DNA of 64,000 nt, taken from NCBI RefSeq assembly GCF_009873495.1, contig NZ_CP046704.1, positions 248,001 through 312,000 on the forward strand, given 5' to 3'. The first letter of the stretch is position 1. Each line of letters starts with the position of its first letter. A program made the position numbers and the translations under genes. The notes below the pieces were generated by a model. That model searched no databases. It was not told the DNA's origin and saw only the letters and a program-made list of their open reading frames with translations. Shown piece by piece: positions 7,951 through 64,000 of this stretch. The stretch comes from Nostoc sp. ATCC 53789. GTDB lineage: Bacteria; Cyanobacteriota; Cyanobacteriia; Cyanobacteriales; Nostocaceae.

Positions 7951-8085
7951 GGTGTTGGGGGTAGGGTGTTGGGTGTAGGGAAGACGGTATTGGTGGGGGC
8001 AAGTGACCCACTGGTTATTGAGGCTAATTCTTCCCCTATACCCCACACCCCACACCCAACACCCTGCCCCTTTGGGGCTTGGTGA
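7950..8085. repeat. Long G-rich/C-rich inverted repeat
   Basis: A G-rich arm at 7950-7980 (repeats of GGGTGTTGGG and GTAGGG) pairs with a C-rich arm at about 8034-8071 (CCCCACACCC, CCAACACCC). It lies between the last exported-protein gene and the coupling-protein gene. It could act as a terminator-like hairpin or RNA processing site, but such repeats are scattered through Nostocales genomes. Confidence 0.7.
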
Positions 8086-8106
8086 ACCCAATTCTCTACC
8101 TTAAAT

Positions 8107-46852: not shown

Positions 46853-47141
46853 AAGATTAAGAATCTCTTGACATATAGTACTAGGGTTCCCAATCAAGGT
46901 AGTAGTTTTAACTATCAATACCTTCGCCAATTTACGAGGGTGAGATGATGATACTTTAACCATTAACTCCCATTTCTTTGAGGGTTGGCAAAAACAATCA
47001 GTCCTAAAAATTCCTTTAAGGTTTCCCACAAGAGTTTTTTAACGTATTGACGGCAGGATAGGGTTTTAGATTCCAAATCACATTTTCATCAAGCCGCTTA
47101 TATATGCTTAGTTTTGCCATTTTTGCCATAATTTATCTAGG

Positions 47142-47531: not shown

Positions 47532-47669
47532 CTAGTAGTCTGCCAAGGTAATTTTGCGTGGTGGCAAGCAGAGGGGCAGGGGGGAAAGAACTTGTATAAA
47601 TCTCTCCTCTGCTCCCCTGCTCCTCTGCCGACCTCCACAAGCGCAATTTTGGGTTGGCGAACTACTAGG
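47532..47669. repeat. CTAGTAGTCTGCCAA-bounded repeat, copy 2
   Basis: Starts CTAGTAGTCTGCCAAGG and ends GGCGAACTACTAG, with facing GCAGAGGGGCAGGGG and CCCCTGCTCCTCTGC tracts. It shares its outer sequences with 20334-20466. Its right end overlaps the first bases beyond the stop of the next gene. Confidence 0.6.
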
Positions 47670-48336
47670 AAGGAGAGCTTTTCACCCAGACATTATGGTT
47701 GTGATAAAAATCACCACGCTGTTCTAATGTAAACCCACCCAGCAATAATCCCAACCATACTTCTACCACCGGCATTTGCAACACACGTTGCAGTTTAACT
47801 AAAGAAATCTCATCTTTGACATTTATCAGATGGTTAGCGATTGCACTCTGCCATTTTTGGACATCCTCATCTGATGCCAAATTGCGAACATCTTCTAAAG
47901 TTGTCACCTCATCGAGCATTGCCAAAACATTCGCTTTTTCAACAGGTGCTGCTACAGAATTGTCCTCCTCAGTAGGAGATGAAAATTGGTGTGGGCCATG
48001 TGGTCTAAAGGTTTGTGGTATTTGCGGTTCAATCAAATCATCTAAATCTAGGTGCATTGTTGTCCGCACTAGACCAGCAAAGAGATCGGTGCTAACAACA
48101 GGCCCCAAAAGACTATTGCGATCGCGGGTATCTTGCAACAGCATTTCGGCACGAGACTTGAGAATATCTGCAACTTGACTGAAGGCAAGCGCTGCGGTTA
48201 ATAACTGTGCCTCCAAGGGTAATTTTTCAAGCTCCGCATCCAAACAATCCCACATAGCATCAAGGGAAGAAGTTGGTGGAGATTCAGACAACTCATCTAA
48301 TACATCCCAGATGGTTAATTGGCGGTATGTGATCAT
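47665..48336 (-). CDS. Accessory protein of a recombinase cassette
   Basis: The 223-residue product is mostly helical and acidic ('LDAELEKLPLEAQLLTAALAFSQVADILKSRAEMLLQDT', then a linker with 'RPHGPHQFSSP', then 'VWLGLLLGGFTLEQRGDFYHN'). No family is recognised. It is separated by two bases from the zinc-finger-like gene upstream, which itself is three bases from the recombinase gene, so the three are one operon. It could be a DNA-binding or directionality partner of the recombinase (inference). Confidence 0.6.
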   Translation of the reverse strand: MITYRQLTIWDVLDELSESPPTSSLDAMWDCLDAELEKLPLEAQLLTAALAFSQVADILKSRAEMLLQDTRDRNSLLGPVVSTDLFAGLVRTTMHLDLDDLIEPQIPQTFRPHGPHQFSSPTEEDNSVAAPVEKANVLAMLDEVTTLEDVRNLASDEDVQKWQSAIANHLINVKDEISLVKLQRVLQMPVVEVWLGLLLGGFTLEQRGDFYHNHNVWVKSSPS

Positions 48337-48338
48337 TG

Positions 48339-48806
48339 CTACAATTCAGGATTTAACGGGCAGGGTCGCACTGGGCAGTAGCTTGAGCTAATCTCAAACA
48401 TATCCTTATATTGATATAGTGAAACACTGTATTGTTTTGCAAAAGCCTGCAACACCTGATCTGTATAGGCGCGGATCTTGCCAGCCGTTAGCCCAAAGCA
48501 GTGAATTGGTTCCAGGCGACAAATAGGCTTTTGCCCCAGCCAGAGTTCTGCCGACATCGCGTGTAATGGTTTATCCCCTGGTTCTTTATACAAATACAGC
48601 ACTGCAAAATATGTTGCTGGTGGTTCGACTGTTACTGAATCAATTTCTGCTGAATTATTCTGCGAACGGTGGCGGTAAAACGAACGGCGATTATGACAGA
48701 CTTTGGGATTCCAACACCCGTCCCCTGCTGTTCCATGCAGCACTTTAGCTTGGGTTGTTGGTAACTTGGCGCATAACTGACACTTGGGATCAAGTGGCTT
48801 GGGCAT
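48339..48806 (-). CDS. Zinc-binding-like protein of a recombinase cassette
   Basis: The 155-residue product has an N-terminal Cys/His cluster (CQLCAK ... HGTAGDGC ... KVCHNRRSFYRHR) that looks like a zinc-finger site, followed by an alpha/beta part ('YFAVLYLYKEPGDKPLHAM') with 'QVLQAFAKQYSVSLYQY' and Cys near the end. It is tightly coupled between the recombinase (start 49841) and the acidic accessory gene. No known family is assigned. Confidence 0.6.
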   Translation of the reverse strand: MPKPLDPKCQLCAKLPTTQAKVLHGTAGDGCWNPKVCHNRRSFYRHRSQNNSAEIDSVTVEPPATYFAVLYLYKEPGDKPLHAMSAELWLGQKPICRLEPIHCFGLTAGKIRAYTDQVLQAFAKQYSVSLYQYKDMFEISSSYCPVRPCPLNPEL

Positions 48807-48809
48807 ACC

Positions 48810-49841
48810 TTACTCCACTTCCTCTCCGATTGCACGATAGTAAGCAGCGATCGCTGCTTCTTGTTCGCTGCGAAGCGTATAGCGCCGAAACGCTTTCTCG
48901 CTTTGATGTCCAGTTAGCTTTCGTGCATGGCTGGGGTCAACTCCCAATAGCAATAAGTCAGTAGCGTAAGTATGTCGAAATGAATGAGGGTGCAAATCCT
49001 CAATATGAGCTATTTCACCGATTTTTTCTACAGCGAAGTAAATCCCGTGATAACTCAAGCGTTCACCCTTGTATGAAGCATGGTGTGAAATCATCAGTGG
49101 ACTAAGGCTGGACAACACCTCTCCTTGCTGTTCGCGCAATTGTAAATAATCTGCCACGACTTCCCGACTCTCTTTTCGCAGTGGAACTAAGCGTGGTTCA
49201 TTGGTTTTGGTGTCTGGTAAAAATAGCAGCTTGCCATCAAATGAGCCAACATTTAACTGCACAACTTCCCCAGCCCGGAGTCCATGACTAAGAATGTGAA
49301 CGAGTGCTGTATCCCGTTGCTTTGTTTCTCCCAGCAATTCCAACGCTGACCAAACCTGTTCCATTTGTTCTGGGGTTAAACTCTGGGCTGGTGGTAGTGG
49401 CACTTTTTCCAGTTTTATCCCCAGTGTCGGATTAGTAGCAATAATTTCAGGATACGTGTAGCACATCCATTTGAAAAAGCTTTTGAGTGCCGCAATTCCG
49501 GCATTGATGCTGCTTTTTGAAAGGGGATTACCTGCATCAGTCCGTATTTCATCACGGAGATATTCTTTATATAGCGCAAGATGACGCGGGCGTAGCTCAT
49601 GATAATGCAGCTCACTCCATGCCAAAAACCGCTTTAGTTCTCGTTCGTAAAGCTTGCGGCTGTTGGGTGCGAGATTGTTGCTGCGTAAAAATTCCAGTAC
49701 TTTTACCCACCGTATATCTGTGGGTGCAGCTATTTTTTCTGCCCTGCTTCTAGATTCTCCCTGTAGGGTTGATGGTGCTTGATCCTGTATGTGGATCAAC
49801 TTGATTGGCGGTAGGTTGTCAAACTGAGGATTATTTACCAT
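48810..49841 (-). CDS. Tyrosine recombinase/XerC-like integrase
   Basis: The 343-residue product has a SAM-like core-binding domain (about 45-140, with 'RSNNLAPNSRKLYERELKRF') and a catalytic domain with Arg in HGLRAGE, Lys in DTKTNEPRLVP, HSFRHT (His-x-x-Arg), GHQ and the Tyr nucleophile in RRYTLR. Length is normal. It leads a three-gene minus-strand cassette with two small accessory proteins, a combination seen in mobile cyanobacterial elements. Its att site is not identified. Confidence 0.9.
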   Translation of the reverse strand: MVNNPQFDNLPPIKLIHIQDQAPSTLQGESRSRAEKIAAPTDIRWVKVLEFLRSNNLAPNSRKLYERELKRFLAWSELHYHELRPRHLALYKEYLRDEIRTDAGNPLSKSSINAGIAALKSFFKWMCYTYPEIIATNPTLGIKLEKVPLPPAQSLTPEQMEQVWSALELLGETKQRDTALVHILSHGLRAGEVVQLNVGSFDGKLLFLPDTKTNEPRLVPLRKESREVVADYLQLREQQGEVLSSLSPLMISHHASYKGERLSYHGIYFAVEKIGEIAHIEDLHPHSFRHTYATDLLLLGVDPSHARKLTGHQSEKAFRRYTLRSEQEAAIAAYYRAIGEEVE

Positions 49842-50072
49842 CTTGATCGCGATCGCCTAGAAGCAGTGTGGAACTAACACCCAAAATTGTATGTGACTTT
49901 AGGGAAAATCTGGCTATCGTGTCACTAGAATGCTTCTCAATCTTGGTACTGAGGTGAATTGTTGAAGATGTTTACAAATCTTGGGTAAGTGAACTAACTG
50001 TCCTTAAAAAGCCGCCATAACCGGACAGTTGCCATTTTTCCCTCATGATATAGCACTAACCTATTAGCGTCC

Positions 50073-51193: not shown

Positions 51194-53209
51194 ATGAAGC
51201 AATTTACTGTGAACACAACCCTAATGGGCAAAGTTACTGATATTGCACAGGAGCAAGGAAAATTTAGTATTAAATGCCGTAGTGGAGATGAATTCCTGGT
51301 TGCAGTTAGTACGGAAACACGATTTCAATTTTTACAAAATTTGGATGGTATAAACCGCGATCGCGTCCCAACTCCTGAAGATTTTCATCAGTCCTCACCA
51401 GCTGATTTAGTGAGAAAATACATCCAGTCGGATAGCTTAGTAGTTTTGCAAGGGGTGTATCTAGAAAATAATGGTAGCCGCCAATATGATGCCCGCATTG
51501 TTAACTTACTAAATTCATATAGAGGTCAAGACGAATTAGTTTTTGAGCAAACTCACTGGTGGCTGACCCAAATTGCCCGTCTAGCAGATAGTTGGTTAGG
51601 TTTTTTATTTCCAAATAAACAAACCTATGAAATAGATGATTTTGCTCTTTACCGAACTAACCTAAATATCATCGGTTTACCAACAGATGATGAGATTCAA
51701 GAATCTGCTACTCTTTCCAGACTGATCTATGGTCTTTCCTCTGCTTACTTGCTAACTGGAAGTGAACGCTATCTTTCAGCGGCTCGTGCTGGAGTTCAAT
51801 ACCAACGTGAAACTTTTCGCAGTTTGACATCTGATGGCAAACATTGTTTTTGGGCATTTGGCAAGCGCAAGACAAAGTACAGTTATCAGTTGTATATACG
51901 TTCTCTCAATGAGGATGATAGAGATACAATCCCACTTTACGAACAAATTTACGCCTTAGCTGGATTAGCTCAGTACTATCGAATCACTTTAGATTGGGAA
52001 GTACTTGATGATATCAAGCGGACTGTTCGTGTCTTTAATGATTTCTTCACTGATCCAGAATCACAGTACGGTAAACATGCTTACGGTGATTATTTTTCAC
52101 ACCTTGATTATGTGACGTTAAATTGGGATAGTCCTGCTCTTGGTGATAACCAAGCCAGAAAAAATTGGAACTCGATTGGGGATCATATACCGGCTTATTT
52201 AATTAACGTGATTTTGGCATTAGAACCTTTGCCATTAACTGATCATGGTCATGAAGAAATTGGGAAATTTTTAGAAACCTGCAAAAAGATTCTCAAAACA
52301 GTCTCCACAATCATTGCCGATAGATTTACCGATCCAGATCCTAACGTTCCATTTGTGAATGAGCGATTTTTGCGAGATTGGAAACCAGACCATAATTGGC
52401 GATGGCAACAAAATCGTGCCGTTGTTGGGCACAATTTGAAGATAGCCTGGAACCTGACTCGTGTTGCTAACTATTATTACTCCTTAGCCGTCCAATCTGC
52501 CGCTGGTAACGCGCAAGAAGCCGAAGAATTACAACGTTTAGCTGATAAGTTGATGAAGCTAACAGACAATTTAGGCATGAAGATGGCAGAGATTGGCGTA
52601 GATTTATTTAGGGGTGGAATCTTTGATACTTTAGAACGTAATCCTCAAAATGGAACGCCACTAGAATTTCCTTGGTTCAACACTAAAGACTTTTGGCAAC
52701 AAGAACAAGCTCTATTAGCCTACTTAATTCTTCATGGTTGCAGTAATGAGATTCATGAACAAAAACAAGAGTATTTGCGGTTAGCACGAGAAACAGCCGC
52801 ATTTTGGAATCTATTCTTTCTTGACCAAGATAATAAAGGTATTTTCTTCCGAGTCAGCGAGAGTGGAGATGCAATTACTTCAGGACAGTATGCACAAAAA
52901 GGCGGACATGCAATTTCTGGATACCATGCCTTTGAGCTAAATTATTTGGCTCATATCTATATCAGTAGCTATGTGACAAAAGAACCCTTCTGTTTGTATT
53001 TCAAACCTGACAAACATTGTCGCCAGCGCTCTCTCAATGTTTTACCAGATTTTTTTAGACCCAATACTTTGGAAGTGAGCAGAGTCAGCATTAATGGTAG
53101 CGATCGTACCACAATCGATCCTGATAATTTTCAAATTGAACTGGGAGAGAAAGAATTTGAACTTGGTTCAGAAGCAGAAATCATTGTGGAATTTACACCC
53201 AAGACTTAG
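51194..53209 (+). CDS. AGE-family (epimerase-fold) protein
   Basis: The 671-residue product has an N-terminal extension (1-110), then an (alpha/alpha)6-type barrel region with 'HWWLTQIARLADSWLGFLF', 'LYEQIYALAGLAQYY', 'NWRWQQNRAVVGHNLKIAWNL' and a late 'HAISGYHAFELNYLAHIY', the pattern of N-acylglucosamine 2-epimerase/cellobiose 2-epimerase-like proteins (GH...W). A short C-terminal beta part follows. The substrate is unknown. GGAAGGG precedes the ATG by six bases. As the first gene of the operon it may process a sugar or scaffold for the pathway (inference). Confidence 0.6.
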   Translation: MKQFTVNTTLMGKVTDIAQEQGKFSIKCRSGDEFLVAVSTETRFQFLQNLDGINRDRVPTPEDFHQSSPADLVRKYIQSDSLVVLQGVYLENNGSRQYDARIVNLLNSYRGQDELVFEQTHWWLTQIARLADSWLGFLFPNKQTYEIDDFALYRTNLNIIGLPTDDEIQESATLSRLIYGLSSAYLLTGSERYLSAARAGVQYQRETFRSLTSDGKHCFWAFGKRKTKYSYQLYIRSLNEDDRDTIPLYEQIYALAGLAQYYRITLDWEVLDDIKRTVRVFNDFFTDPESQYGKHAYGDYFSHLDYVTLNWDSPALGDNQARKNWNSIGDHIPAYLINVILALEPLPLTDHGHEEIGKFLETCKKILKTVSTIIADRFTDPDPNVPFVNERFLRDWKPDHNWRWQQNRAVVGHNLKIAWNLTRVANYYYSLAVQSAAGNAQEAEELQRLADKLMKLTDNLGMKMAEIGVDLFRGGIFDTLERNPQNGTPLEFPWFNTKDFWQQEQALLAYLILHGCSNEIHEQKQEYLRLARETAAFWNLFFLDQDNKGIFFRVSESGDAITSGQYAQKGGHAISGYHAFELNYLAHIYISSYVTKEPFCLYFKPDKHCRQRSLNVLPDFFRPNTLEVSRVSINGSDRTTIDPDNFQIELGEKEFELGSEAEIIVEFTPKT

Positions 53210-53219
53210 GAGATAAGTT

Positions 53220-53891
53220 ATGGTGACCCAAATGCTAGAAGGAAAGAAAGTCGCCATCCTTGTAGAAACGGAGTTCATTCCTCAGGAAATTGCAGCTTAT
53301 CGGCAACACTTTCAGGAACTTGGGGCGACTGTGCATTTCATGTCTCGGCTTTGGGGAAATGAAAGTGTACGATTTGTCAGTGATGTGGATGAAGTTGGTG
53401 AATCTCTGCAATATCTTGATGTAAACATTGACTTTCAGAAAGTAGATATTAATGAATATGCTGCTGTAATTATGGCTGCTAACTACACCAGTGTACGTCT
53501 GCGCTACTTTGAACCACCATCAGGACAGGAGATTAGTCCAGAGCAAACTCGTACTGCACCAGCAGTTCAGTTTTTTGCTCAAGCAATGGCAAATCACAAG
53601 ATTATCAAAGCTTTACTCTGTCATGGATTGTGGTTACTGACTCCAATGCCAGAACTACTCCGAGGACGAAGAGTAATCTGTCATGAAGTGGTGCTGGCCG
53701 ATATTACTAATGCTGGTGCTGTTTACGTACCACCACCTGTAAATTCTCAACCAAATGATCCTGGAAATATTGTGGTTGATCAAGACCTAGTAACAGGACG
53801 AGCTGGACATGATGTGTATGCTTTTATTGATGCGATCGCTCACCAAATCGCATCTCAAGAACAATGTTGCGTAGAAACACAAAGGAGATGA
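53220..53891 (+). CDS. DJ-1/PfpI superfamily protein 1
   Basis: The 223-residue product has the DJ-1 alpha/beta fold pattern: 'KKVAILVETEFIPQEI', 'AAVIMAANYTSV', nucleophile-elbow 'KALLCHGLWLL' with Cys at about 134, and 'DLVTGRAGHDVYAF'. DJ-1 proteins act as hydrolases, glyoxalases or hydratases. It follows the AGE gene by ten bases and the second DJ-1 gene by four, so it is part of one transcript. Confidence 0.8.
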   Translation: MVTQMLEGKKVAILVETEFIPQEIAAYRQHFQELGATVHFMSRLWGNESVRFVSDVDEVGESLQYLDVNIDFQKVDINEYAAVIMAANYTSVRLRYFEPPSGQEISPEQTRTAPAVQFFAQAMANHKIIKALLCHGLWLLTPMPELLRGRRVICHEVVLADITNAGAVYVPPPVNSQPNDPGNIVVDQDLVTGRAGHDVYAFIDAIAHQIASQEQCCVETQRR

Positions 53892-53895
53892 TCCG

Positions 53896-54747
53896 ATGAC
53901 CAAAATTCTGATTGTGCTATCAGAGTGGGGTTACTGGGGAGAAGAACTAGTAGGCCCCCTAGAAACCTTTGATGCAACTGGGTATCAAGTTGACTTCGCT
54001 ACCCCAAATGGCAAAAGACCTGTAGCACTCGGGGTAAGCATGGACCCTACTTTTGTTGACCCACCATTAGGGAGACCAGTCACTACACAAGATATGGCTG
54101 ATAAGGTCAGACAATTAGATGACACCAACAATCCACGGTTAAACAACCCAAAAAATCTTAGAGAGTGGCTCCCAGAAAGACCTTATTGGAGTTCACCAAA
54201 ATTCTTACGGGAAATGGAGGAATATTACAGACAACTAGATGAAGTGCAACAAAGAGATTTGCAGTCATACGATGCCATTCTTATTGTCGGTGGTAGTGGT
54301 CCGATGGTTGATTTAGCTGACAACCAGAGAGTACACGATCTCATCCTCAGTTTTTACCAAATGGGTAAGCCAGTCGCCGCAGAATGTTACGGCGTTTCAT
54401 GTCTGGCATTTGCCCGTGACATTGGCGATCGCAAGAGCATTATTTGGGGTAAACACGTCACAGGCCATTGCCTGGAATATGACTACAAAAATGGTACGGG
54501 ATTTAACGGTACTAACATCGACCCATGTCTGAACAATATTAACTTTGGCACGCCATTCTATCCTCTAGAATACATACTCCGTGATGCTACAGGGCCAGAC
54601 GGACAGTATCATGGCAATGTCGGTAGACCAACATCAGTGATTGTTGACTATCCGTTTATTACGGGGCGCTCTACGCCAGACTCTTATCTCACTGGTCAGA
54701 AATTGGTGGAAGTCCTAGAAAAAGGACTCAAGCGCTATGGCTGGTAA
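53896..54747 (+). CDS. DJ-1/PfpI superfamily protein 2
   Basis: The 283-residue product is a longer DJ-1/Hsp31-like protein: 'KILIVLSEWGYWGEEL', 'YDAILIVGGSGPMVDL', nucleophile-elbow 'AAECYGVSCLAF' with Cys at about 164, and a distinct insertion (about 70-115, rich in Arg/Pro). The pair of related genes suggests sequential or heteromeric activity in the same pathway. A ribosome-binding site (AGGAGATG) lies just before it. Confidence 0.8.
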   Translation: MTKILIVLSEWGYWGEELVGPLETFDATGYQVDFATPNGKRPVALGVSMDPTFVDPPLGRPVTTQDMADKVRQLDDTNNPRLNNPKNLREWLPERPYWSSPKFLREMEEYYRQLDEVQQRDLQSYDAILIVGGSGPMVDLADNQRVHDLILSFYQMGKPVAAECYGVSCLAFARDIGDRKSIIWGKHVTGHCLEYDYKNGTGFNGTNIDPCLNNINFGTPFYPLEYILRDATGPDGQYHGNVGRPTSVIVDYPFITGRSTPDSYLTGQKLVEVLEKGLKRYGW

Positions 54748-54823
54748 AGTCGGATTTTAAATATCTGGATGGTACTGCACGATAAACACTGTATGCAATT
54801 AATAGTTGCAGAAGGTAAAATCC

Positions 54824-56530
54824 ATGACTAACAAAACAGGCCGCTTTGCAATTCTCGAACAATTTTTGGCAGATGGCATCCATTACATATTTGGTAACCC
54901 TGGCACATCAGAAGAAGGATTTTTGGATGCTATTCGGGAATATCCAGACCTGAAATACATCTTGACATTGCAAGAATCCGTCGCTGTGATGGCAGCAGAT
55001 GGTTATGCTAGAGCAACTAAAAAGCCTGCTTTGGTGCAAATTCATAGTACCCCTGGTTTAGGAAATGCGATCGGCGCACTTTACCAAGCATACCGAGGTC
55101 ACTCACCACTGGTAGTGATTGGTGGTGATGCAGGCATCAAATATCAGGCGATGGACGCTCAGATGGCAGGAGACTTAGTAGCTTTTGCCGAGCCAGTTAC
55201 CAAGTGGTCAACAATGGTGATGGAACCATCTTCGTTGCTGCGGGTTTTGCGACGGGCTATTAAGATTGCTGCCACTCCACCAATGGGGCCTGTATATGTT
55301 TGCCTACCTATGGATATTTTGGATGCGCCTGTAGTGGAAGAAGTCAGACCAACCTCATTTCCATCGACCAGAGTTGTGCCAGATGAAGAATCTCTCAAAA
55401 CTGTAGCAGCAATGTTAGCATCTGCTCAAAAGCCGATGTTTTTTGTAGGAGATGGCGTGGCTTATTCTGGCGCACAGAATGAGCTAACCTACGTTGCTGA
55501 AATTTTAGGTGCAGAGGTGTGGGAAGCTGATGCTGGCGAGTTGAATATGAACTATGTCCATCCTCTTTATCAAGGTATGACAGGACATATGTTTGGCTCT
55601 CAAAGCCGACTTATCACCTCTAAAGGTGATGTCAGCTTAGTTTGTGGAACCTACCTCTTACCAGAGGTATTCGCCGAGCTGGGCAATATCTTTACACCTG
55701 GAGCAAAAGTCATTCATATCGATCTCAATGCCTACGAGATTGCTAAAAATCACCTAGTAAACTTGGGTTTGGTCAGCGATCCGAAACTTACCCTCGCTAA
55801 ACTAGCGGCTATCTTGGACGCAGTTATGACATCTAAGCAGAAAGAAGCTGCTAGGGCGAGAATTGCAGAAATTGGACAAGCCAAAGAAGCGCAACGCAAA
55901 CGCGAGCTAGAACAAGATCGTAGTGTGAGGGATAGTGTACCCATACATTTCTCCCGCTTTGCAGAAGAACTGGCAACTCACTTACCAGAAGATGCAATTA
56001 TCTTCGATGAAGCTCTCACTTGTTCCCCCCAGCTTACACGCTATTTACCTCCAAGCAAGCCAGAGCAATATTTTCTTACTCGTGGTGGTTCGTTAGGTGT
56101 GGGAATTCCAGGGGCGATCGGTGCTAAACTTGCTAATCCGGACAAAATGGTGATTGGCGTGACGGGAGATGGTGGTGCCATGTATACAATTCAAGCTCTG
56201 TGGTCAGCGGCTCGTTACAATGTTGATGCCAAGTTTGTTATCTGTAATAACCGTTCTTACAGGTTGTTGCAGTTAAATATCCAAGCCTACTGGCAACAGC
56301 AGGGTCTACCAAACTATGCTTATCCCCTAAGTTTTGATTTGTCTAAGCCAGATCTTCGCTTTGACGAAATGGCTCGTTCGATGGGTGTCCAGGGGATTCG
56401 GGTTGAAAAAACTGAAGAGATAGCCCCAGCTATCCAAAAGGCATTAGCCCACAAGGGACCATTCCTTATCGATGTGGTTTTAGAAGCAGATGTTCACCCT
56501 GAAATGATTGGTGTTCCGTGCGGACAGTAA
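54824..56530 (+). CDS. Thiamine-diphosphate-dependent enzyme (benzoylformate decarboxylase/acetolactate synthase-like)
   Basis: The 568-residue product has the three-domain ThDP-enzyme plan: catalytic Glu51 in TLQESVAV, a middle domain, and a ThDP motif starting GDGG (about 447) and ending in NN about 27 residues later (FVICNNRSY). It is of normal length for this family, which decarboxylates 2-keto acids or joins them to acyloins. ATG 54824 is preferred (AGAAGG 8 bases before) to TTG 54806. It is a likely carbon-carbon bond step of the operon. ScyA of scytonemin synthesis is also in this superfamily, but the other Scy genes are not here. Confidence 0.85.
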   Translation: MTNKTGRFAILEQFLADGIHYIFGNPGTSEEGFLDAIREYPDLKYILTLQESVAVMAADGYARATKKPALVQIHSTPGLGNAIGALYQAYRGHSPLVVIGGDAGIKYQAMDAQMAGDLVAFAEPVTKWSTMVMEPSSLLRVLRRAIKIAATPPMGPVYVCLPMDILDAPVVEEVRPTSFPSTRVVPDEESLKTVAAMLASAQKPMFFVGDGVAYSGAQNELTYVAEILGAEVWEADAGELNMNYVHPLYQGMTGHMFGSQSRLITSKGDVSLVCGTYLLPEVFAELGNIFTPGAKVIHIDLNAYEIAKNHLVNLGLVSDPKLTLAKLAAILDAVMTSKQKEAARARIAEIGQAKEAQRKRELEQDRSVRDSVPIHFSRFAEELATHLPEDAIIFDEALTCSPQLTRYLPPSKPEQYFLTRGGSLGVGIPGAIGAKLANPDKMVIGVTGDGGAMYTIQALWSAARYNVDAKFVICNNRSYRLLQLNIQAYWQQQGLPNYAYPLSFDLSKPDLRFDEMARSMGVQGIRVEKTEEIAPAIQKALAHKGPFLIDVVLEADVHPEMIGVPCGQ

Positions 56531-56652
56531 TTACGTAAGTTGCTAGCGGAATTGGAGTTAACAGATTTTCGAAGCCGTAGTCTTTCGCAGAACTAGAAAC
56601 AATAAATCAAAAAATTGAACAAAATTAGTACTAACTGAAAAAGAGTTATGTC

Positions 56653-57351
56653 ATGATCCATCAATTAATATTTGCTCATCCTAAACCAAGCATGAGTGAG
56701 AAAGACTTCCAAGACTATTGGATTAATGTTCATGCTGTTAATTACGCCAGCCAAATTCCTCAAATTAGAAGATATTTAATTGATTTGAGAATTCCCTTTG
56801 GACCAGAACCAGAAGATCCTCTTTTCAGTGGCGTTGCTGAAATTTGGTTAGAAAATGAAGCAGAACAAATCGCTTCATTGCAATCTAAAGAGTTTCTAGA
56901 AGGAGCGCGGAGAGATGAACCTAATTGGGCAGCCTTCTGGCGCACAGTTGGACTAGATACAACTGCTCACGTTTTGATGGTAGGAGAACCGTTACAAAGA
57001 GACTTTAATACAATCAAGGTTTTGATAATGGTTAAGCGAAAAGCTGGGATGTCATTAGCTGAATTTCGCCAAACCATGTTGAATAGTCATGCTGCTAAAG
57101 TCATGAAACTTCCAGGTCTACGGCGCTATCTTCAATGTCACGTCCGCGATAATTTTTATACGATTGGTGAATCTATTCTCGATTGCGTATCGCAGCTTTG
57201 GTTTAACGATTTGCCATCTCTTGAGACAGCTTTCAATTCACCAGAATATCAAAATCTAATTTTGCCAGAATTTGGGCATCTGTTTGAAGCTAAGTATGTT
57301 CATACTATGGTGACAACTGAAACTTGGATTATTGGCCCAGAATTTCGCTAA
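56653..57351 (+). CDS. Tandem EthD-domain protein
   Basis: The 232-residue product has two copies of the EthD-like ferredoxin-like alpha/beta unit: 'HQLIFAHPKPSMSEKDFQDYW' (1-100) and 'IKVLIMVKRKAGMSLAEFRQ' (about 120-225), each with its own His in 'NVHAVN' and 'NSHAAK'. EthD proteins are small dimeric monooxygenase- or cyclase-like helpers in catabolic and polyketide pathways. It precedes the Nif11-like genes by 14 bases. Confidence 0.8.
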   Translation: MIHQLIFAHPKPSMSEKDFQDYWINVHAVNYASQIPQIRRYLIDLRIPFGPEPEDPLFSGVAEIWLENEAEQIASLQSKEFLEGARRDEPNWAAFWRTVGLDTTAHVLMVGEPLQRDFNTIKVLIMVKRKAGMSLAEFRQTMLNSHAAKVMKLPGLRRYLQCHVRDNFYTIGESILDCVSQLWFNDLPSLETAFNSPEYQNLILPEFGHLFEAKYVHTMVTTETWIIGPEFR

Positions 57352-57365
57352 AGGGGATTCGATTT

Positions 57366-57680
57366 ATGTCTAAGGAAAACGTAATTAATTTTTTAAGAGC
57401 CTGTACTAACGATACTGCTCTGCTAGAAAAATTTGAGCAGAAGAACTTACCTGAAGTTATTTTACATGCTAAAAGTTTGGGTTATGGCTTTAGCAGTGAG
57501 GAATTATCTGCTGTTATTGGAAGCATGGAAGCTCAGATTATTACAGAGAAAATGGGCGAGGAAATCAATGCTTACAGTAGTTTGTGGCAGCGTATGTGGG
57601 GCAAATATCGTCTGCAATATGTTGTTGAGGAATTATTTCGTACTTTTTCTAATATGGAACTAAAACAGTTTCTTAGTTAG
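57366..57680 (+). CDS. Nif11-like small protein 1
   Basis: The 104-residue product starts with the Nif11 pattern (MSKENVINFLRACTNDTALL ... AKSLGYGFSSEEL). Its second half is not a Cys- or Ser-rich core but a helical, Trp-containing segment (SLWQRMWGKYRLQYVVEELF) shared with the next gene. Classical Nif11 proteins are precursors of ribosomal peptides; here no obvious cleavage site or core is seen, so it may be a carrier or scaffold. ATG 57366 is chosen by a GGGGATTCG upstream and by the usual MS start; a longer frame from 57324 overlaps the EthD gene. Confidence 0.75.
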   Translation: MSKENVINFLRACTNDTALLEKFEQKNLPEVILHAKSLGYGFSSEELSAVIGSMEAQIITEKMGEEINAYSSLWQRMWGKYRLQYVVEELFRTFSNMELKQFLS

Positions 57681-57690
57681 TGAAAATCCT

Positions 57691-58026
57691 ATGGCGAGAA
57701 TAGAAGTAGTTAATTTTTTGCAAAGTCTTGTTCGACAACCTGAGTTACAAAATCAATTGAAAGCTCTCTCCAAACCTGATGTTTTGGTATATGCAGAGCG
57801 AGCGGGTTATAAGTTTACCGAGCAAGAGTTTGACGATACTGTTTGGGGAGTCGAGATTTTTTTAGCAGATAAGCTAGGAGAGAATTTCGATCTAACGTTT
57901 AGTTTGTGGGAAACAATGTGGGGCAAGTACTACCTTGAATATCTTGCTGTTAATGTAATTGATAGTTTGTCCCAAGAAGAAATAAATGCGTTTCTAAACC
58001 AGGGCAAAAGGTGGATTAGTAAATGA
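57691..58026 (+). CDS. Nif11-like small protein 2
   Basis: The 111-residue product is a paralogue of the previous protein, with 'MARIEVVNFLQSLVRQPELQ' and 'AERAGYKFTEQEF' as a diverged Nif11 part and 'SLWETMWGKYYLEYLAVNVI' as its C-terminal segment. Sequence similarity to protein 1 is clearest in the C-terminal half (SLWxxMWGKYxLxY). The stop overlaps the start of the first GMC gene by four bases, so production is coupled. Confidence 0.75.
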   Translation: MARIEVVNFLQSLVRQPELQNQLKALSKPDVLVYAERAGYKFTEQEFDDTVWGVEIFLADKLGENFDLTFSLWETMWGKYYLEYLAVNVIDSLSQEEINAFLNQGKRWISK

Positions 58027-59570
58027 ATTTCGAACATACATTTGATTACATTATTGTAGGCGCTGGTGCGGCTGGTTGTGTTATTGCTTACCGACTGATT
58101 AAAAATTTGGGTTGTAGCGTTTTGTTACTGGAAGCAGGTAATCCAGATAATAACCCTGCCATCCACAATACAGATATGCAATCGATGACTTCTCTGTGGG
58201 GTTCTAATGCAGATTGGGGGTATTCAACTGAACCAGAACCAAGTTTAGGTGATCGCCGCATCTCGATTGCTCAAGGCAAGGTTTTGGGTGGCGGGACTTC
58301 GATCAATGCCATGATGTATATTCGGGGCAATCGTCGCGATTATGATCGCTGGAAATATTTGGGAAATGAAGGTTGGAGTTACCAAGAAGTTTTATCATAT
58401 TTCAAGAAGTCGGAAGATTATGAAGGCGGAGAATCTGCCTACCACGGAGTAGGTGGTCCTTTACACGTCATTAACTATCGCAATCCTGCACCTGTATCTC
58501 AGGCTTTCGTATCAGCAGCGATGGAATTAGGTTATGCGGGTAATGGGTGGGACTGCAACGGCGAACAACAGGAAAATGGCGCATTTTTCTATCAATCCAC
58601 TCGCACTCAAGACAATCGGCGTTGCAGTACGGCTGTTGCTTTTCTCAGACCAATTTTCGGACACCCTACTTTTACAGTAGCAACTAACGCGCAAGTCACT
58701 CGGCTTTTATTCGCTAAACAACGAGCTATTGGAGTGGAATATCTGCAAGACGGCAACTTTCACCAAGTTAAAGCTGAATCGGAAGTCATTCTGAGTTGTG
58801 GTGCATTTGAATCTCCTAAACTGCTGATGCTTTCCGGTGTTGGATCTGCTGAACATTTGCAAGCTCATGGTATTCCCCTGATAGTAGATTTACCAGGAGT
58901 TGGCAAAAATCTGCAAGATCATTTACTATTTGGAGTCGGATATAGGTGCAAGCAAGAACAACCCGTACCTAACCTTCTTTCTGAAGCAGGTTTGTTTACT
59001 TACACCAACAGTAACATCGATTTAAGTACAAACTCACCTAATCTGCAATTCTTTTTTGGTCCTGTACAATTTGTAGAACCCCAGTATCGAGTAGATAGCC
59101 CTGGTTTTACTTTCGCACCAATTTTAGTCCAACCGCAAAGCCGAGGTACTGTCTCTTTAATATCTAACAATCCCAAAGATTTAGCCGTCCTGCGTCCTAA
59201 TTATTTACAATCTGAAGCCGATCTCGATGTTTTAATTCGAGGAGTTGAATTATCTAGAGAATTAGTCAATACCCGTCCCTTTGATGAATTTCGAGGTGAA
59301 GAATTAGCCCCAGGAATTGCTGTAACTGGCAAAGCGGAATTAAGGGCATATATCTGTCAAGTTGCTTCCACTGTTTGGCATCCAGTTGGGACTTGCAAAA
59401 TGGGAGGCGATAACGATGCTGTTGTCAATCCTTTGCTTCAGGTTTATGGAGTAGAAGGACTGCGAGTTGCAGATGCTTCAATTATGCCGACGATTACTAG
59501 CGGTAACACTAATGCTCCTACCATCGCGATCGCTGAAAAAGCAGCGGATATGATTATTGCCGCTCGGTAG
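58023..59570 (+). CDS. GMC-family flavin oxidoreductase 1
   Basis: The 515-residue product has an N-terminal Rossmann FAD motif (DYIIVGAGAAGCV), the GMC signatures 'KVLGGGTSINAMMYIRGN' and 'CGAFESPKLLMLSG', and the C-terminal catalytic 'WHPVGTCKMGG' with His. It is a normal-length FAD-dependent alcohol (or choline-like) dehydrogenase/oxidase. The substrate is unknown. Confidence 0.9.
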   Translation: MNFEHTFDYIIVGAGAAGCVIAYRLIKNLGCSVLLLEAGNPDNNPAIHNTDMQSMTSLWGSNADWGYSTEPEPSLGDRRISIAQGKVLGGGTSINAMMYIRGNRRDYDRWKYLGNEGWSYQEVLSYFKKSEDYEGGESAYHGVGGPLHVINYRNPAPVSQAFVSAAMELGYAGNGWDCNGEQQENGAFFYQSTRTQDNRRCSTAVAFLRPIFGHPTFTVATNAQVTRLLFAKQRAIGVEYLQDGNFHQVKAESEVILSCGAFESPKLLMLSGVGSAEHLQAHGIPLIVDLPGVGKNLQDHLLFGVGYRCKQEQPVPNLLSEAGLFTYTNSNIDLSTNSPNLQFFFGPVQFVEPQYRVDSPGFTFAPILVQPQSRGTVSLISNNPKDLAVLRPNYLQSEADLDVLIRGVELSRELVNTRPFDEFRGEELAPGIAVTGKAELRAYICQVASTVWHPVGTCKMGGDNDAVVNPLLQVYGVEGLRVADASIMPTITSGNTNAPTIAIAEKAADMIIAAR

Positions 59571-59619
59571 TTCGGTGAAACCAAAACCAAAAATTAGTTA
59601 ATGGGGTAAGAAGCGATCG

Positions 59620-61196
59620 TGACAGATAATTTTGATTTTATTATTGTCGGTTCGGGTGCAGCAGGTGCAACTGTTGGCTATCGTTTGAGTGAATTTCCTG
59701 ATGCCAAAATCTTAATTTTAGAAGCTGGCGGCACTCAGATGTTGGAAGCAATTGAGGTTCCCTATCGCTGGAATGAGTTATTATTAACCGAAATTGATTG
59801 GGCTTACATGAGCGTTCCCCAGCCAGGGCTTGCTAACAGACAAATCTATTCTGCGGCTGGCAAACTTATCGGTGGAACTTCCAATATTTATCACATGATT
59901 CATACCAGAGGTAAAGCCTCTGATTTCGCTGATTGGGCTTACAATGGTTGTTCTGGTTGGTCTTTTAAAGAAGTACTTCCCTATTTTCAAAAACTAGAAA
60001 ATCAGGAAGACGACACCAACCCTACTGCGGGTAGAGGTGGTCCAATTAATGTCATTGATGCCAAATACGAAGGCAACCCAACTTCACAAGCTTTCATCGA
60101 TGCCTGTGTAGAACTGGGATATCCTTACGTCAAAGATTTTAATGCCGAGGATTTTGGCGTTGGTTGGCATCATGTAGATATTAAAAACGGCAGACGCGCT
60201 GGAGTCAGAACTGCATATTTAGAACCAGCTTTAACTCGACCTAACGTAAGTTTAAGTAGCAGTTCCCAAGCTACAAAACTGTTGATAGAAAAAAATCGTT
60301 GTGTGGGAGTCGAGTATCAGCAGGATGGAGTTTTAAAAACTGCTAGAGCCAGTCAAGAAGTGATTGTTTGTGCTGGTGCAATTCAATCGCCAAAATTATT
60401 GCTGCTTTCTGGTATCGGCAATCCAGAACAGCTCCAACAATTCAATATACCCACCGTAGTAAATCTACCAGGTGTAGGAGAAAATTTTCACGACCATCCA
60501 CTAATTATCGGTCCTATGGGCATGATGTCTGAACCAGGAGCAGATCCCAAGGGTAACATGACTGAGGTTGCCTTATTTTGGAAATCTGAAGCATCAATGC
60601 TGGTTCCCGATTTAGAAATTTGTCTGGTTCATCGCGCCCCATTTGGTGAATCATTTTTCGGTAACGTGATCCAGCGTCTTCAAACTAATCAACCAATTGC
60701 GTCAGTGAGTCAGTTAGTCGATCCGAGAATCATTTTGGCACTACCTGGTTTAGTACGCCCGTTATCACGTGGGTGGGTGCGTTTGGCAAGTAGCGATCCT
60801 ATGGCTAATCCTCTGATTAATGCCAATTATGGAGCAGAAAGATCGGATATTGATCGCATGGTAACTATGGTGAAAATAGCACGCGAGATTTATCAAACTA
60901 AAGCCTTTGCTAAATTGGGTTTGACAGAAATAAACCCAGGTCCAGAAGTCAACAACAAAGAAGCACTAAGAAATTGGGTTATTAACAATATAGGTTCTTA
61001 CTACCACTACGTAGGGTCTTGCAAAATGGGTATTGACCGTATGGCAGTTGTAGACTCGCAACTGAAAGTTTACGGTGTAGAAGGATTGCGTGTAGCTGAT
61101 GCTTCAGTAATGCCCTCTATACCCTCATCCAACCCCCACACATCAATCGTCATGATTGGCGAGAGAGTAGCAGATTTTATCAAACAGCAATTTTAA
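59620..61196 (+). CDS. GMC-family flavin oxidoreductase 2
   Basis: The product of about 525 residues (GTG start in GATCGTGACA) carries FDFIIVGSGAAGATVGY, 'GKLIGGTSNIYHMIHTRG', 'CAGAIQSPKLLLLSG' and 'YHYVGSCKMGI' near the C-terminus. It is a paralogue of the first GMC protein, with Tyr instead of Trp before the catalytic-region His. The pair may oxidise successive intermediates or act on alternative substrates. Confidence 0.9.
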
Positions 61197-61238
61197 GAAT
61201 AATTCCAACAACAAATTTTTATCAACAGAGTTAGAAAT

Positions 61239-62255
61239 ATGCCGGAACAAACAGAAATCTTCGATCTAGGGAACTTCCAACTATCAACCGGATTCATCCT
61301 TCCAAATGCCAAATTGGCGTACAAAACCCACGGAAACTTGAACGCAGCGAAAGACAATGCAATTCTATTTCCACATTTTTTAGGTGGTGCGCCAGAAGCT
61401 CTAGAAATCTTTATTGGCGAGAACCGTCCGTTAGATCCGCGCCAATACTTCATCATCTTACCTGGGCTGCTCGGCAACGGTGTCTCGTCCTCACCCAGCA
61501 ACACAGCACCACCATTCGATAGAGGAGCCTTCCCACAAACTCATATCGCTGATGACGTAATCGCTCAACAGCGGCTCGTAACTGAGAAATTCGGAATTGA
61601 CGAACTGTATTTAGTTCTCGGCTGGTCTGTAGGCGCACTTCAAACTTATGAGTGGGCAGTCCGCTTTCCCCATATGGTCAAGCGTGCTGCTTCGATCGCA
61701 GGCGCTCCCAAGCCTTCACCTTGGACTGTTCTGTGGTTGCGTACGGCAATTGAGGAGCCGCTCTTATCCGATCTAGCTTGGAACAACGGCTTCTACACCG
61801 ATCCCCAGGCTGTGCAAGCCGGATTGCGCCGTCAAGCACACGTCATGGCCCTGACACTACCACCGCTCGGATTCTACCGTGAAGGCGAGGAAGTCTGGCG
61901 TACTATTGGCTTTGCTTCCCTGGACGACTTTGTTTCTCGCTTCTGGGAAGCTTTTATGCTCCCCCAAGACCCCAACAATTTGATTAATCAATCGCGCAAG
62001 ACTCGTGCCGCAGACCCCAGCGCTGGCAGCGATTTGTCCGCCGCACTGAGCCAAATCAAAGCACAAATGTTCGTGGTTGCTTTCACTGGTGATCGGATGT
62101 TTCCGCCTGAAGAATGCAAGCGAGATGCTGACAGGATTCCCAACGCCAAATATTGGGAAGTTAACAGCATCGGCGGTCACTTGACAACATTCGCCCTGAC
62201 CGAGCAAGACAGACAGGCAATGGACGATGTTCTACGGCAAGTGCTAACAGCTTAA
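61239..62255 (+). CDS. Alpha/beta hydrolase (homoserine O-acetyltransferase-like)
   Basis: The 338-residue product has the nucleophile elbow GWSVGA (Ser at about 130), Asp in FTGDRMF (about 283) and His in IGGHLTTF (about 310), a full alpha/beta hydrolase triad. The opening 'FQLSTGFILPNAKLAYKTHG' and 'FLGGAPEALEIFIGENRPLDP' resemble MetX-type acyltransferases, but no methionine genes are nearby, so it is more likely an acyltransferase or hydrolase of this pathway. Confidence 0.8.
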   Translation: MPEQTEIFDLGNFQLSTGFILPNAKLAYKTHGNLNAAKDNAILFPHFLGGAPEALEIFIGENRPLDPRQYFIILPGLLGNGVSSSPSNTAPPFDRGAFPQTHIADDVIAQQRLVTEKFGIDELYLVLGWSVGALQTYEWAVRFPHMVKRAASIAGAPKPSPWTVLWLRTAIEEPLLSDLAWNNGFYTDPQAVQAGLRRQAHVMALTLPPLGFYREGEEVWRTIGFASLDDFVSRFWEAFMLPQDPNNLINQSRKTRAADPSAGSDLSAALSQIKAQMFVVAFTGDRMFPPEECKRDADRIPNAKYWEVNSIGGHLTTFALTEQDRQAMDDVLRQVLTA

Positions 62256-62284
62256 CTTCTTTACTATTTCCATAGGAGACAATA

Positions 62285-63163
62285 ATGTATATCGGTCGAG
62301 ATTGGTCAATTGAGCATAACCAGCGGGCAAAAGTCAAAAACGCCGAACTCAGATACGCAGTGTTGGGCAATGGCGAACCCGTACTGTGCATTCATGGCAC
62401 GAATATTGCTGACAGCCTGATTACACCGCTACAGTTTTGTCCCCAGCTTTTTGAAAAGTACAAATTTATTAGTTACTACAGATCTGGCTACAATGGCAGC
62501 ACTCTAGAGAAAGATAGTTTGAGCATTGAGGAAGGTGTAGAACATTCCAAACAACTGCTGGAGCATCTAGGGATTGAGAAAGCCCATATTCTGGCTTTTT
62601 CGTTTGGTGGCGTAATCGGCTTCCAATTCATGCTTTCCTATCCTGAAATGGTGCATTCTGCCATTCTGCTCGAACCATATCTGCCTAGAGAATCTCCAGA
62701 GGCGGTTGAGGCTAACGTGAATGCTTTCAATCGAGCGATGGATCTGTTTAAAGCTGGCGATCGCCTGGGTGCTGCTCAACGTTACATGGTGGATGTCTGC
62801 GGACTCAGTTTCTTGAGCGCTGTCGATATGACAAATCCACTCGATGTGTGGAATAGAGTTGCTGTTGATGCCAATATAGCTTTCACCGTAGATTTTCCGG
62901 CAATTTCTAATTGGGGATTCAGAATGTCAGAGGCAGATCGGCTAGTAGAGAAAAAACCGACTATGCCAGTCTTAGCTGTGATGGGGCTAGACAGTGAAGC
63001 CGCAATGCCTGGTTTTCGAGAGACTCAGGAGTTTCTCATGAACTGGCTGCCGCAAGCCGAACGGTGCGGCATCATGAATGCCACTCACGGTATGCAAAGC
63101 ATGAATCCCATAGAAGTCGGACAAGCGGCACTGGCTTTTCTGCAAAAGCACCCAATGGTTTAA
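62285..63163 (+). CDS. Alpha/beta hydrolase
   Basis: The 292-residue product has 'LCIHGTNIADSLI' (oxyanion region), nucleophile elbow AFSFGGVIG (Ser at about 105) and His in NATHGMQSM near the end. It starts with a Tyr/Ile-rich N-terminus rather than a signal peptide, so it is cytoplasmic. A GGAGA ribosome-binding site precedes the ATG. It probably hydrolyses or transfers an ester or thioester intermediate. Confidence 0.85.
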   Translation: MYIGRDWSIEHNQRAKVKNAELRYAVLGNGEPVLCIHGTNIADSLITPLQFCPQLFEKYKFISYYRSGYNGSTLEKDSLSIEEGVEHSKQLLEHLGIEKAHILAFSFGGVIGFQFMLSYPEMVHSAILLEPYLPRESPEAVEANVNAFNRAMDLFKAGDRLGAAQRYMVDVCGLSFLSAVDMTNPLDVWNRVAVDANIAFTVDFPAISNWGFRMSEADRLVEKKPTMPVLAVMGLDSEAAMPGFRETQEFLMNWLPQAERCGIMNATHGMQSMNPIEVGQAALAFLQKHPMV

Positions 63164-63189
63164 GCCGACACGACAGGAGAAGTATTCGT

Positions 63190-63615
63190 ATGTCTTTACT
63201 CGCACAGGCAAAGCAGTTCTTCACGGCACTCAACGCACACGAGCTAGATGAGGTAGTTGCCGCGATCGCTCCGTCAGCCAACATCCACACGCCCATAGGG
63301 TCGTTTACTGGAGGCGAAGCCTACCGAGAGTGGATGTTAATGCACTTCCGTGCGATACCGGACTTCACCCACGAAATTCGTGGTATGGCAGTGGAGTCAG
63401 ATCGGACGCTTGCCTTCGAGCTGCACGCTACTGGAACCATGACTGGTCCGCTAGCTATGCCCAGTGGCGACTTGCCCCCTACTGGCAGAAGCATCGATAT
63501 CTCAGCATCTGATTTCTGGCGATTTGAGGACGGGCTAATTGTCGAGTACCACCTCTACTTCGATCGGTTCGACTTCTTCGGGCAGCTCGGACTCACTCCA
63601 CCAGCTGAAGATTGA
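63190..63615 (+). CDS. SnoaL-like polyketide-cyclase-family protein
   Basis: The 141-residue product has the SnoaL/NTF2-like pattern: 'FFTALNAHELDEVVAAIAPSANIHTPIGSF', 'FRAIPDFTHEIRGMAVE', and 'DFWRFEDGLIVEYHLYFDRFDFFGQLG'. Such small cone-shaped proteins catalyse cyclisation or related steps in secondary metabolism. AGGAGA precedes the ATG; a longer upstream frame from 63064 overlaps the hydrolase gene and is not used. Confidence 0.8.
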   Translation: MSLLAQAKQFFTALNAHELDEVVAAIAPSANIHTPIGSFTGGEAYREWMLMHFRAIPDFTHEIRGMAVESDRTLAFELHATGTMTGPLAMPSGDLPPTGRSIDISASDFWRFEDGLIVEYHLYFDRFDFFGQLGLTPPAED

Positions 63616-63667: not shown

Positions 63668-63925
63668 ATGCAAACATGCACTCTCGGTAAGAACAGTCCA
63701 AACGTCTCTGCTCTCAGTTCAGGACTGATGGGGATGTCGGACTTTTACAGTCTCGCGATCGCCGAAATGGTCGAGGCAGCGGGCTATGTCTGCCATATCG
63801 GATTTTCGGAAGCAGGAACCGAAGCCCAACGTGTTCACCCGATTGGCTGGCTCCAAATCGAATATTCGCTTGATCGCTACGATGCTGGGCAAATGCCTGC
63901 ACTCGACAGCGAAAGAAAAACATAA
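63668..63925 (+). pseudogene. Internally deleted aldo/keto reductase
   Basis: A frame of 85 codons starts like an aldo/keto reductase (MQTCTLGKNSPNVSALSSGL then MGMSDFY) and jumps directly to a later segment (VCHIGFSEAGTEAQRVHPIG then WLQIEYSLDRYD). A full enzyme is about 330 residues; roughly 110 residues containing the catalytic Tyr/Lys/His region are missing, and so is the C-terminus. It is therefore a remnant. Confidence 0.7.
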
Positions 63926-63952: not shown

Positions 63953-64000
63953 ATGCCTACAATTCCTGTTCAGTTTAACTATATTACAGGTATTAAAAGA
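63953..64000 (+). CDS. Start of the next gene (partial)
   Basis: AAGGA precedes an ATG with an open frame to the window edge (MPTIPVQFNYITGIKR). Sixteen residues are too few for a safe assignment. The short distance from the AKR remnant suggests the operon continues. Confidence 0.5.
   Translation, partial: MPTIPVQFNYITGIKR

Follow-up and report, generated by a model that had tools for sequence, protein, structure and literature searches.

A putative, horizontally exchanged tailoring locus with paired Nif11-like and GMC genes in Nostoc sp. ATCC 53789

Positions 51194 to 63615 of a 64,000-nucleotide stretch of DNA (hereafter the window), located on a 337-kb contig of the 13-contig genome of the cyanobacterium Nostoc sp. 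ATCC 53789, hold a run of 12 genes, A to L, in which enzymes of several classes stand beside a pair of Nif11-like proteins. All 12 open reading frames (ORFs) are open, intact and on the + strand, where a preliminary description of this DNA had placed them, and its account of closely spaced genes holds, with gaps of 10, 4, 76, 122, 14, 10, −4, 48, 42, 29, and 26 bases. These gaps apply to the preferred starts, set at 54824 for D, 57366 for F, and 63190 for L because the matches of relatives begin at those positions. A (51194..53209), the constant left end gene, encodes a 671-aa protein with an N-acylglucosamine 2-epimerase (AGE)-like fold and is followed by genes for a DJ-1/PfpI protein with a Cys-His pair (B, 53220..53891), a ThiJ-like protein of the DJ-1 superfamily (C, 53896..54747), a thiamine diphosphate (ThDP) enzyme (D, 54824..56530), an EthD protein (E, 56653..57351), the Nif11-like proteins a and b of 104 and 111 aa (F, 57366..57680, and G, 57691..58026, the latter overlapping H by 4 bases), the GMC oxidoreductases 1 and 2 (H, 58023..59570, and I, 59619..61196), a MetX-like alpha/beta hydrolase or acyltransferase scoring above the NF005757 cut-off (J, 61239..62255), a second alpha/beta hydrolase (K, 62285..63163), and a SnoaL-like protein with an 89% relative in locus L051 (L, 63190..63615). 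The family names proposed earlier were upheld by domain models; those of Pfam and NCBIfam agree on DJ-1/PfpI, ThiJ-like, 3 ThDP domains, EthD (2 stretches), 2 Nif11, 2 GMC, 2 alpha/beta hydrolases, and SnoaL.

While these genes are real, the unit extends past 63615. An internally deleted remnant of an aldo/keto reductase (AKR) gene (63668..63925, + strand) comprises 85 codons, three pieces of which align with an intact relative of 333 aa in L051. It is followed at 63953..64000 by the start of M, the constant right end gene on the same strand, which encodes an 840-aa GH13 alpha-glucan-active enzyme and runs beyond the window to C2:314475; an SMP-30 gene comes next. M contains alpha-amylase domains, and its nearest solved structures are GlgB and trehalohydrolases. 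A scan for promoters and terminators returned counts inside the scatter of shuffles, and no tRNA gene was found in the surrounding 20 kb.

Genome searches covered the phylum of the window; those with D and with profile A3 scored 3 and up to 12 candidates per genome, respectively, and may have missed some copies. A relative of A was found in 76 of 291 genomes of the order, 11 of which form a close clade at 55% identity or above (the genome itself, G174, G238, G135, G148, G197, G161, G186, G216, G169, and G254), the remaining matches lying at 33% to 48%; in 14 distinct loci, relatives share 52% to 91% identity with A. Searches by tblastn with all 12 proteins showed that A to K keep their order in G148, G161, and G197, with L recovered only in G161, so that the synteny in other cyanobacteria that the preliminary description proposed to look for does exist. 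In 7 loci (L011, L013, L015, L046, L047, L048, and L052), A to D are followed by different genes, and Dendronalium, Cylindrospermum, and Nostoc B retain just A and B, next to other interior genes. A DJ-1 gene adjoins the AGE gene in all 10 close loci, and a GH13 relative forms the end of the locus in 12 of the 14 close AGE loci compared, none having been found in L054 or in L015, the stretch of which stops before that point. The locus is modular: its borders are constant, with the AGE-fold and DJ-1 genes on one side and GH13 on the other, and the interior differs.

Within the phylum, D was found in 11 of the 386 genomes searched. When 44 stretches were scored, D was present (at least 45% identity) in 30, and C lay near it in every one, with midpoints 1.2–1.6 kb apart (3.2 kb in L086). 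In this scoring, 3 genomes or records are split over 2 stretches each, identity floors such as the 50% set for GMC make weaker GMC genes count as absent, and the reference proteins derive partly from the listed loci themselves, hence the self rows of 100%; L053 and L055, judged by length and result to duplicate the contigs of L013 and L015, were left out of both the scoring and the motif counts.

The gene set recurs outside cyanobacteria. A plasmid of Gemmobacter aquarius (Alphaproteobacteria) carries relatives of A to K within approximately 14.5 kb, including both Nif11 genes, which are annotated as hypothetical proteins; the identities are 36.5% (A), 33% (B), 54% (C), 58% (D), 43% (EthD), 34% and 40% (Nif11), 54% and 57.5% (GMC), and 59% and 58% (hydrolases). 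A chance assemblage was rejected, given that the synteny recurs in a second phylum, and its presence in 3 other cyanobacterial genomes and on this plasmid supports the view that the A to K genes form one conserved unit. Plasmid searches found A in 17 records and D in 13 (E below 1e-80), all of the latter being among the former; records NBC_01387, 01267, 01014, and 01766 appear to be close duplicates, of which only 01766 was examined in detail. In the AGE regions of 12 plasmids, 2 of them much alike (NBC_00334 and NBC_01766), a GlgX or alpha-amylase-family gene adjoins AGE in 11, with at most a STAS gene in between, the exception being NBC_01022, where treS and a maltotransferase-domain gene lie at least 3 kb from AGE. 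Overall, the AGE/GH13/DJ-1 frame was found in cyanobacteria, Streptomyces, Deinococcus, Runella, and Gemmobacter. Of 19 wider AGE relatives, 15 have GH13 within 1.5 kb, 16 have STAS, and 6 have DJ-1, and in several relatives AGE and GlgX are accompanied by STAS, SpoIIE, and kinase-type genes. STAS and SpoIIE genes occur near AGE and GlgX in L074, L075, L076, L092, L093, and L094, a possible sign of partner-switch regulation of a glucan locus across phyla.

Comparison of DNA identities along the window points to a mosaic history. Identity to L011, from the Nostocaceae relative Amazonocrinis, is 84.5% over 51194–56531 (A to D) and 89.7% from 63967 (GH13), and that to L010 (Dendronalium) is 86.9% over A and B and 86.6%–89% from 63937 on. 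Against L049–L051, which belong to another family, identity is 85%–88% between 56652/56653 and 63.2 kb, or 63.8 kb for L051, with short pieces at 76%–80% over the AKR remnant and 65%–76% outside this region. The steps fall in the gap between D and E and near 63.9 kb. Consistently, synonymous divergence (dS) from L051 is 0.45–0.94 for E to L and approximately 2 or saturated for A to D, the latter genes showing a dS of 0.39–0.96 to L011. Given these identity steps and the contrast in dS between A–D and E–L, the window copy is a mosaic: the segment from E to the AKR remnant entered between D and GH13 as one cassette, of which E is the first gene. J was found at E 1e-70 in 1 of 217 genomes of the host's own family and at 94% identity in 3 of 19 genomes of the donor-like family (a fourth match is at 43%); in the order as a whole, it is present at 94%–100% in 4 of 291 genomes, with 3 more at 40%–43%. 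Vertical inheritance of the whole operon was rejected on the grounds of this distribution in the own family and of the step in dS. Among 5 genomes of the same genus, no empty site could be cleanly defined, the stretch upstream of A matching many scattered repeats and only the SMP-30 part being matched downstream.

The protein encoded by A had no Pfam match of its own at E 0.001. Its AGE-fold assignment stands because N-acylglucosamine 2-epimerase structures (8bry at E 1.9e-8) were retrieved with a profile built from 20 relatives (alignment A1) and because 17 of these relatives match the GlcNAc_2-epim Pfam family (E up to 10, best E 9.4e-22). Like members of the N-acylglucosamine 2-epimerase/cellobiose 2-epimerase family, A shows the barrel profile match and keeps the His of a GHxxxxxW motif; it differs from them in its 671-aa length, in a Lys that replaces Glu, and in that its wider relatives are fused or linked to STAS and GH13, some with a C-terminal STAS domain. 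An AlphaFold model of A based on 6 close relatives was too poor, with a mean predicted local distance difference test score of 49.7. In a metagenome-assembled genome of Hyellaceae, the AGE gene (L015:10001-12025) is broken into 3 reading frames, by decay or assembly error. The nucleophile Cys of the DJ-1 superfamily is present in B at 22 of 22 loci, as Cys134 followed by His135, and in C at 30 of 30 (Cys164), with Glu163 in 28 of 30. In L054 (G169), which retains A to C next to a ThDP protein only 32% identical to D, B and C form a single ORF (7044-8627), which supports a joint role for the two.

Domain models and solved structures place D in the benzoylformate-decarboxylase-like group. It shares with benzoylformate decarboxylase (6a50 and 1bfd, its closest solved structures) the 3 ThDP domains, a Glu, and one His (Glu51 and His74, in 30 of 30 loci); it differs in scoring 327.6, far under the 493 cut-off of the benzoylformate decarboxylase model NF005485, and in Thr28 and Val282, likewise present in 30 of 30 loci. 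We do not name D a benzoylformate decarboxylase because these residues align with the presumed Ser26 and second catalytic His281 of that enzyme; the best aligned structure also has Val at the latter place, so that the native residue is our assumption. D would instead represent a distinct subfamily of the group. Assignment as a 2-hydroxyacyl-CoA lyase was rejected, none being named among the best 60 of 64 matching solved sequences. H and I both contain GMC N- and C-terminal domains; the active-site His of H is found in 6 of 6 sequences and its Asn in 5 of 6, and I carries a His/His pair in 11 of 12, the twelfth sequence not covering the site. Ser and His are present in J and K in 5 of 5 sequences, and K gave no match to solved structures at 1e-8. 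The pairing of the GMC active-site His with His or Asn, like the motif roles of the residues named here for B, C, D, and H to K, is presumed. The preliminary description had suggested that the pathway forms an acyloin or aldehyde from a 2-keto acid, oxidizes it and then cyclizes it; this scheme is unproven, given the low NF005485 score of D and the Val at the presumed His281 place, and the SnoaL match is no proof of cyclization.

F and G both match Nif11, with TIGR03798 scores of 28.2 and 29.0 bits, under the 32.3 cut-off, and neither matched PHROGs. Residues 45–53 of F read EELxxVIG[GS], resembling the N11P leader motif ELSDEELEAVAGG given in PMC2887384; the site is GG in L049, L051, and Gemmobacter and GS in the window and L050. 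It speaks for a kinship with leaders of ribosomally synthesized and post-translationally modified peptides (RiPPs), as far as the motif can indicate; no Gly-Gly-type site was found in any of the 5 G proteins. Both proteins align over their full length from cyanobacteria to Gemmobacter, with invariant W, MWG, L, and Y behind the Nif11 domain, and their tails (residues 49–104) are about as constrained as that domain: the ratio of nonsynonymous to synonymous divergence is 0.20–0.25 in the tail of F versus 0.20–0.22 in its Nif11 domain, and 0.06–0.07 versus 0.10–0.12 in G, values that for F indicate purifying selection. The last 30 residues contain 2–5 Cys, Ser, or Thr, rather than a short, variable core rich in these residues.

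The pair is tied to the GMC genes. Both Nif11 genes, GMC1 and GMC2 (at least 50% identity), and both hydrolases co-occur in 5 of the 44 stretches (the window, L049, L050, L051, and L058), and the other 39 lack the pair. When every six-frame stretch of at least 45 residues in 47 loci was searched with a profile, the same 5 loci emerged with 2 genes each, plus a weak match in L092, and profile A3 recovered from the 386 genomes of the phylum only the 2 copies of the window, the 3 related genomes being outside that sample. Cyanobacteria have the Nif11 pair upstream of the GMC pair and Gemmobacter has it downstream, indicating that their adjacency outlived a rearrangement. Among 24 genomes checked, a Nif11 domain falls within the fetched locus in 4 (G148, G161, G197, and G154), 4 genomes have none, and the other matches lie elsewhere. 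In G154, an AGE/DJ-1/GlgX locus with another interior (L092) encodes at 6622-8127 a 502-residue protein composed of a Nif11 domain, 2 SnoaL stretches, and an ABM domain; the Nif11 domain scores 43.5 bits against a cut-off of 23.8 and is the only one found in that genome. This fusion lowers the probability of a RiPP role and raises that of Nif11 acting as a module. Because F and G score below the model cut-off, have conserved tails and occur only beside the same two GMC enzymes, they are unlikely to be a RiPP precursor pair. Most likely, by analogy, they would be small subunits that serve the two GMC enzymes as partners, in docking, or in folding: in the flavin adenine dinucleotide (FAD)-dependent glucose dehydrogenase complex, a small "hitchhiker" subunit serves a GMC-like subunit and is described in PMC6719666 as needed for its folding and secretion. 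The two systems are alike in combining a GMC-type enzyme with a small partner protein, whereas here a Nif11-like pair accompanies 2 GMC enzymes, no haem subunit is found among the operon proteins, and a folding role is a conjecture. Another pairing of a GMC gene with a leader-type gene was seen on a plasmid of Nostoc C052 (L072:1-2601), where the GMC gene adjoins one annotated as an NHLP leader peptide family precursor.

With about as much confidence as doubt, we read the window locus as a version of a modular biosynthetic (tailoring) locus that passes horizontally between genomes, would be fed by sugar and would use the Nif11-like proteins as GMC partners. The constant end genes (AGE-fold, DJ-1, and GH13) would probably release a reducing sugar from alpha-glucan reserves and modify it, and the interior would convert the carbonyl skeleton derived from that sugar to a small product. 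We infer an order of steps in which DJ-1 and the pair of ThiJ-like protein C and ThDP enzyme D would act on carbonyl intermediates, the pair by C–C bond or carbonyl chemistry, the GMC enzymes with their Nif11 partners would oxidize, and the hydrolases and SnoaL would finish the product; the cassette swapped in here contributes EthD, the 2 GMC enzymes, the 2 alpha/beta hydrolases, and SnoaL. The preliminary description, which did not register that the AKR is broken, that GH13 is constant at the right end, that the copy has a mosaic history, or that the Nif11 and GMC pairs go together across phyla, recognized no known pathway with this gene set; likewise, among the matches listed from the open-licence PubMed Central (PMC) literature, as far as their text was available, we found no description of the set and none of a product of the AGE/GH13/DJ-1 frame. 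Surface-polysaccharide loci have constant flanks and a swapped middle. The window locus is like them in its fixed end genes and exchangeable interior, whereas its interior consists of oxidoreductases and small tailoring folds rather than glycosyltransferases. More tentatively, and as a possibility rather than an expectation, the locus may belong to a cross-phylum, glycogen-linked family with a constant AGE/DJ-1/GH13 frame and exchangeable cassettes for different sugar-derived products, in which Nif11 domains would serve tailoring enzymes as docking or partner modules, here in the form of a separate pair alongside 2 GMC enzymes and elsewhere within the SnoaL/ABM fusion. If so, a subfamily of Nif11, a protein family the function of which is called unknown in PMC2887384, would have a working role outside RiPPs, and the locus would offer a traceable system of whole-cassette exchange between fixed end genes, in which a change of product could be linked to a change of cassette.

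Several observations weigh against this interpretation. In A, a Lys replaces the Glu of the GHxxE motif seen in AGE structures, so that the protein may not be an epimerase. In the window's own clade, GH13 stands at the opposite end of the locus from AGE instead of next to it (0 of 10 within 1.5 kb), and the GH13 of the wider relatives is of another type, 25%–29% identical to M. No AGE gene is present in the fetched stretch of 8 D loci (L078, L082, L083, L085, L086, L087, L089, and L091); in L078, L082, and L083, the same record carries AGE approximately 23–29 kb away. With its AKR disrupted, the window locus may encode an altered pathway. Nif11 domains occur in 20 of the 24 genomes, mostly elsewhere, so that the placement near AGE in G154 could be due to chance, the fusion itself being a fact. 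GMC1 relatives occur without Nif11 in L086 and L094, and EthD does so in L075, L076, L078, L080, and L091; 2 other plasmids with GMC1 relatives contained no Nif11-like frame detectable by profile.

The rival that survives best, although we consider it unlikely, is a catabolic operon that degrades an exogenous glycoside, aromatic compound, or acyloin and makes no product. The GMC, AKR, hydrolase, EthD, SnoaL, and SMP-30 classes would suit degradation equally, J and K weakly resemble hydrolases of ring-cleavage pathways, and the spread is as patchy as that of J in the own family; yet the A to M set includes no transporter, the interior is exchanged between constant ends, and the relatives accompany glycogen genes and, in several cases, partner-switch regulators. 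Defence against carbonyl stress, in which DJ-1, AKR, VOC, and ThDP enzymes would clear reactive sugar-derived dicarbonyls under stress, appears improbable: it would account for the 2 DJ-1 superfamily proteins with their conserved Cys, for the intact AKR of L051, the nearest relative of which is methylglyoxal reductase at a score below the cut-off, and for the STAS/SpoIIE genes near AGE in several relatives, but it leaves the whole-cassette swapping, the 2 GMC enzymes, and the Nif11 pair unexplained. Very improbable is a RiPP cluster in which F and G are Nif11-type leader peptides, the C-terminal parts of which are modified by GMC, EthD, and other enzymes and then cleaved off, since the resemblance to N11P and TIGR03798 precursors (PMC2887384) ends with the Nif11 domain and the GG-like site of F, whereas both proteins fall below the cut-off, G lacks such a site, the approximately 51 residues behind that of F are constrained like a Nif11 domain rather than forming a variable core, no lanthionine, cyclodehydratase, or peptidase-ABC family was found among the operon proteins and 9 flanking proteins scanned, and a related locus has the domain fused to SnoaL/ABM.

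The surroundings of the locus hold further genes of interest. Just upstream of A to L, a tyrosine-recombinase gene and 2 unassigned companions (window 47663-49912) constitute a repeated mobile element, with many matches of approximately 89%–97% in 3 of the 5 genomes of the same genus. An 876-aa protein with a TPS secretion domain is encoded on the − strand (window 44402-47029). Past the window end (L009:4985-9270, C2 approximately 316–320 kb) lie an asparagine-synthase-like gene, a PqqD plus transglutaminase-like gene and, further along, an ABC transporter gene, a set which we take to be lasso-peptide-like.

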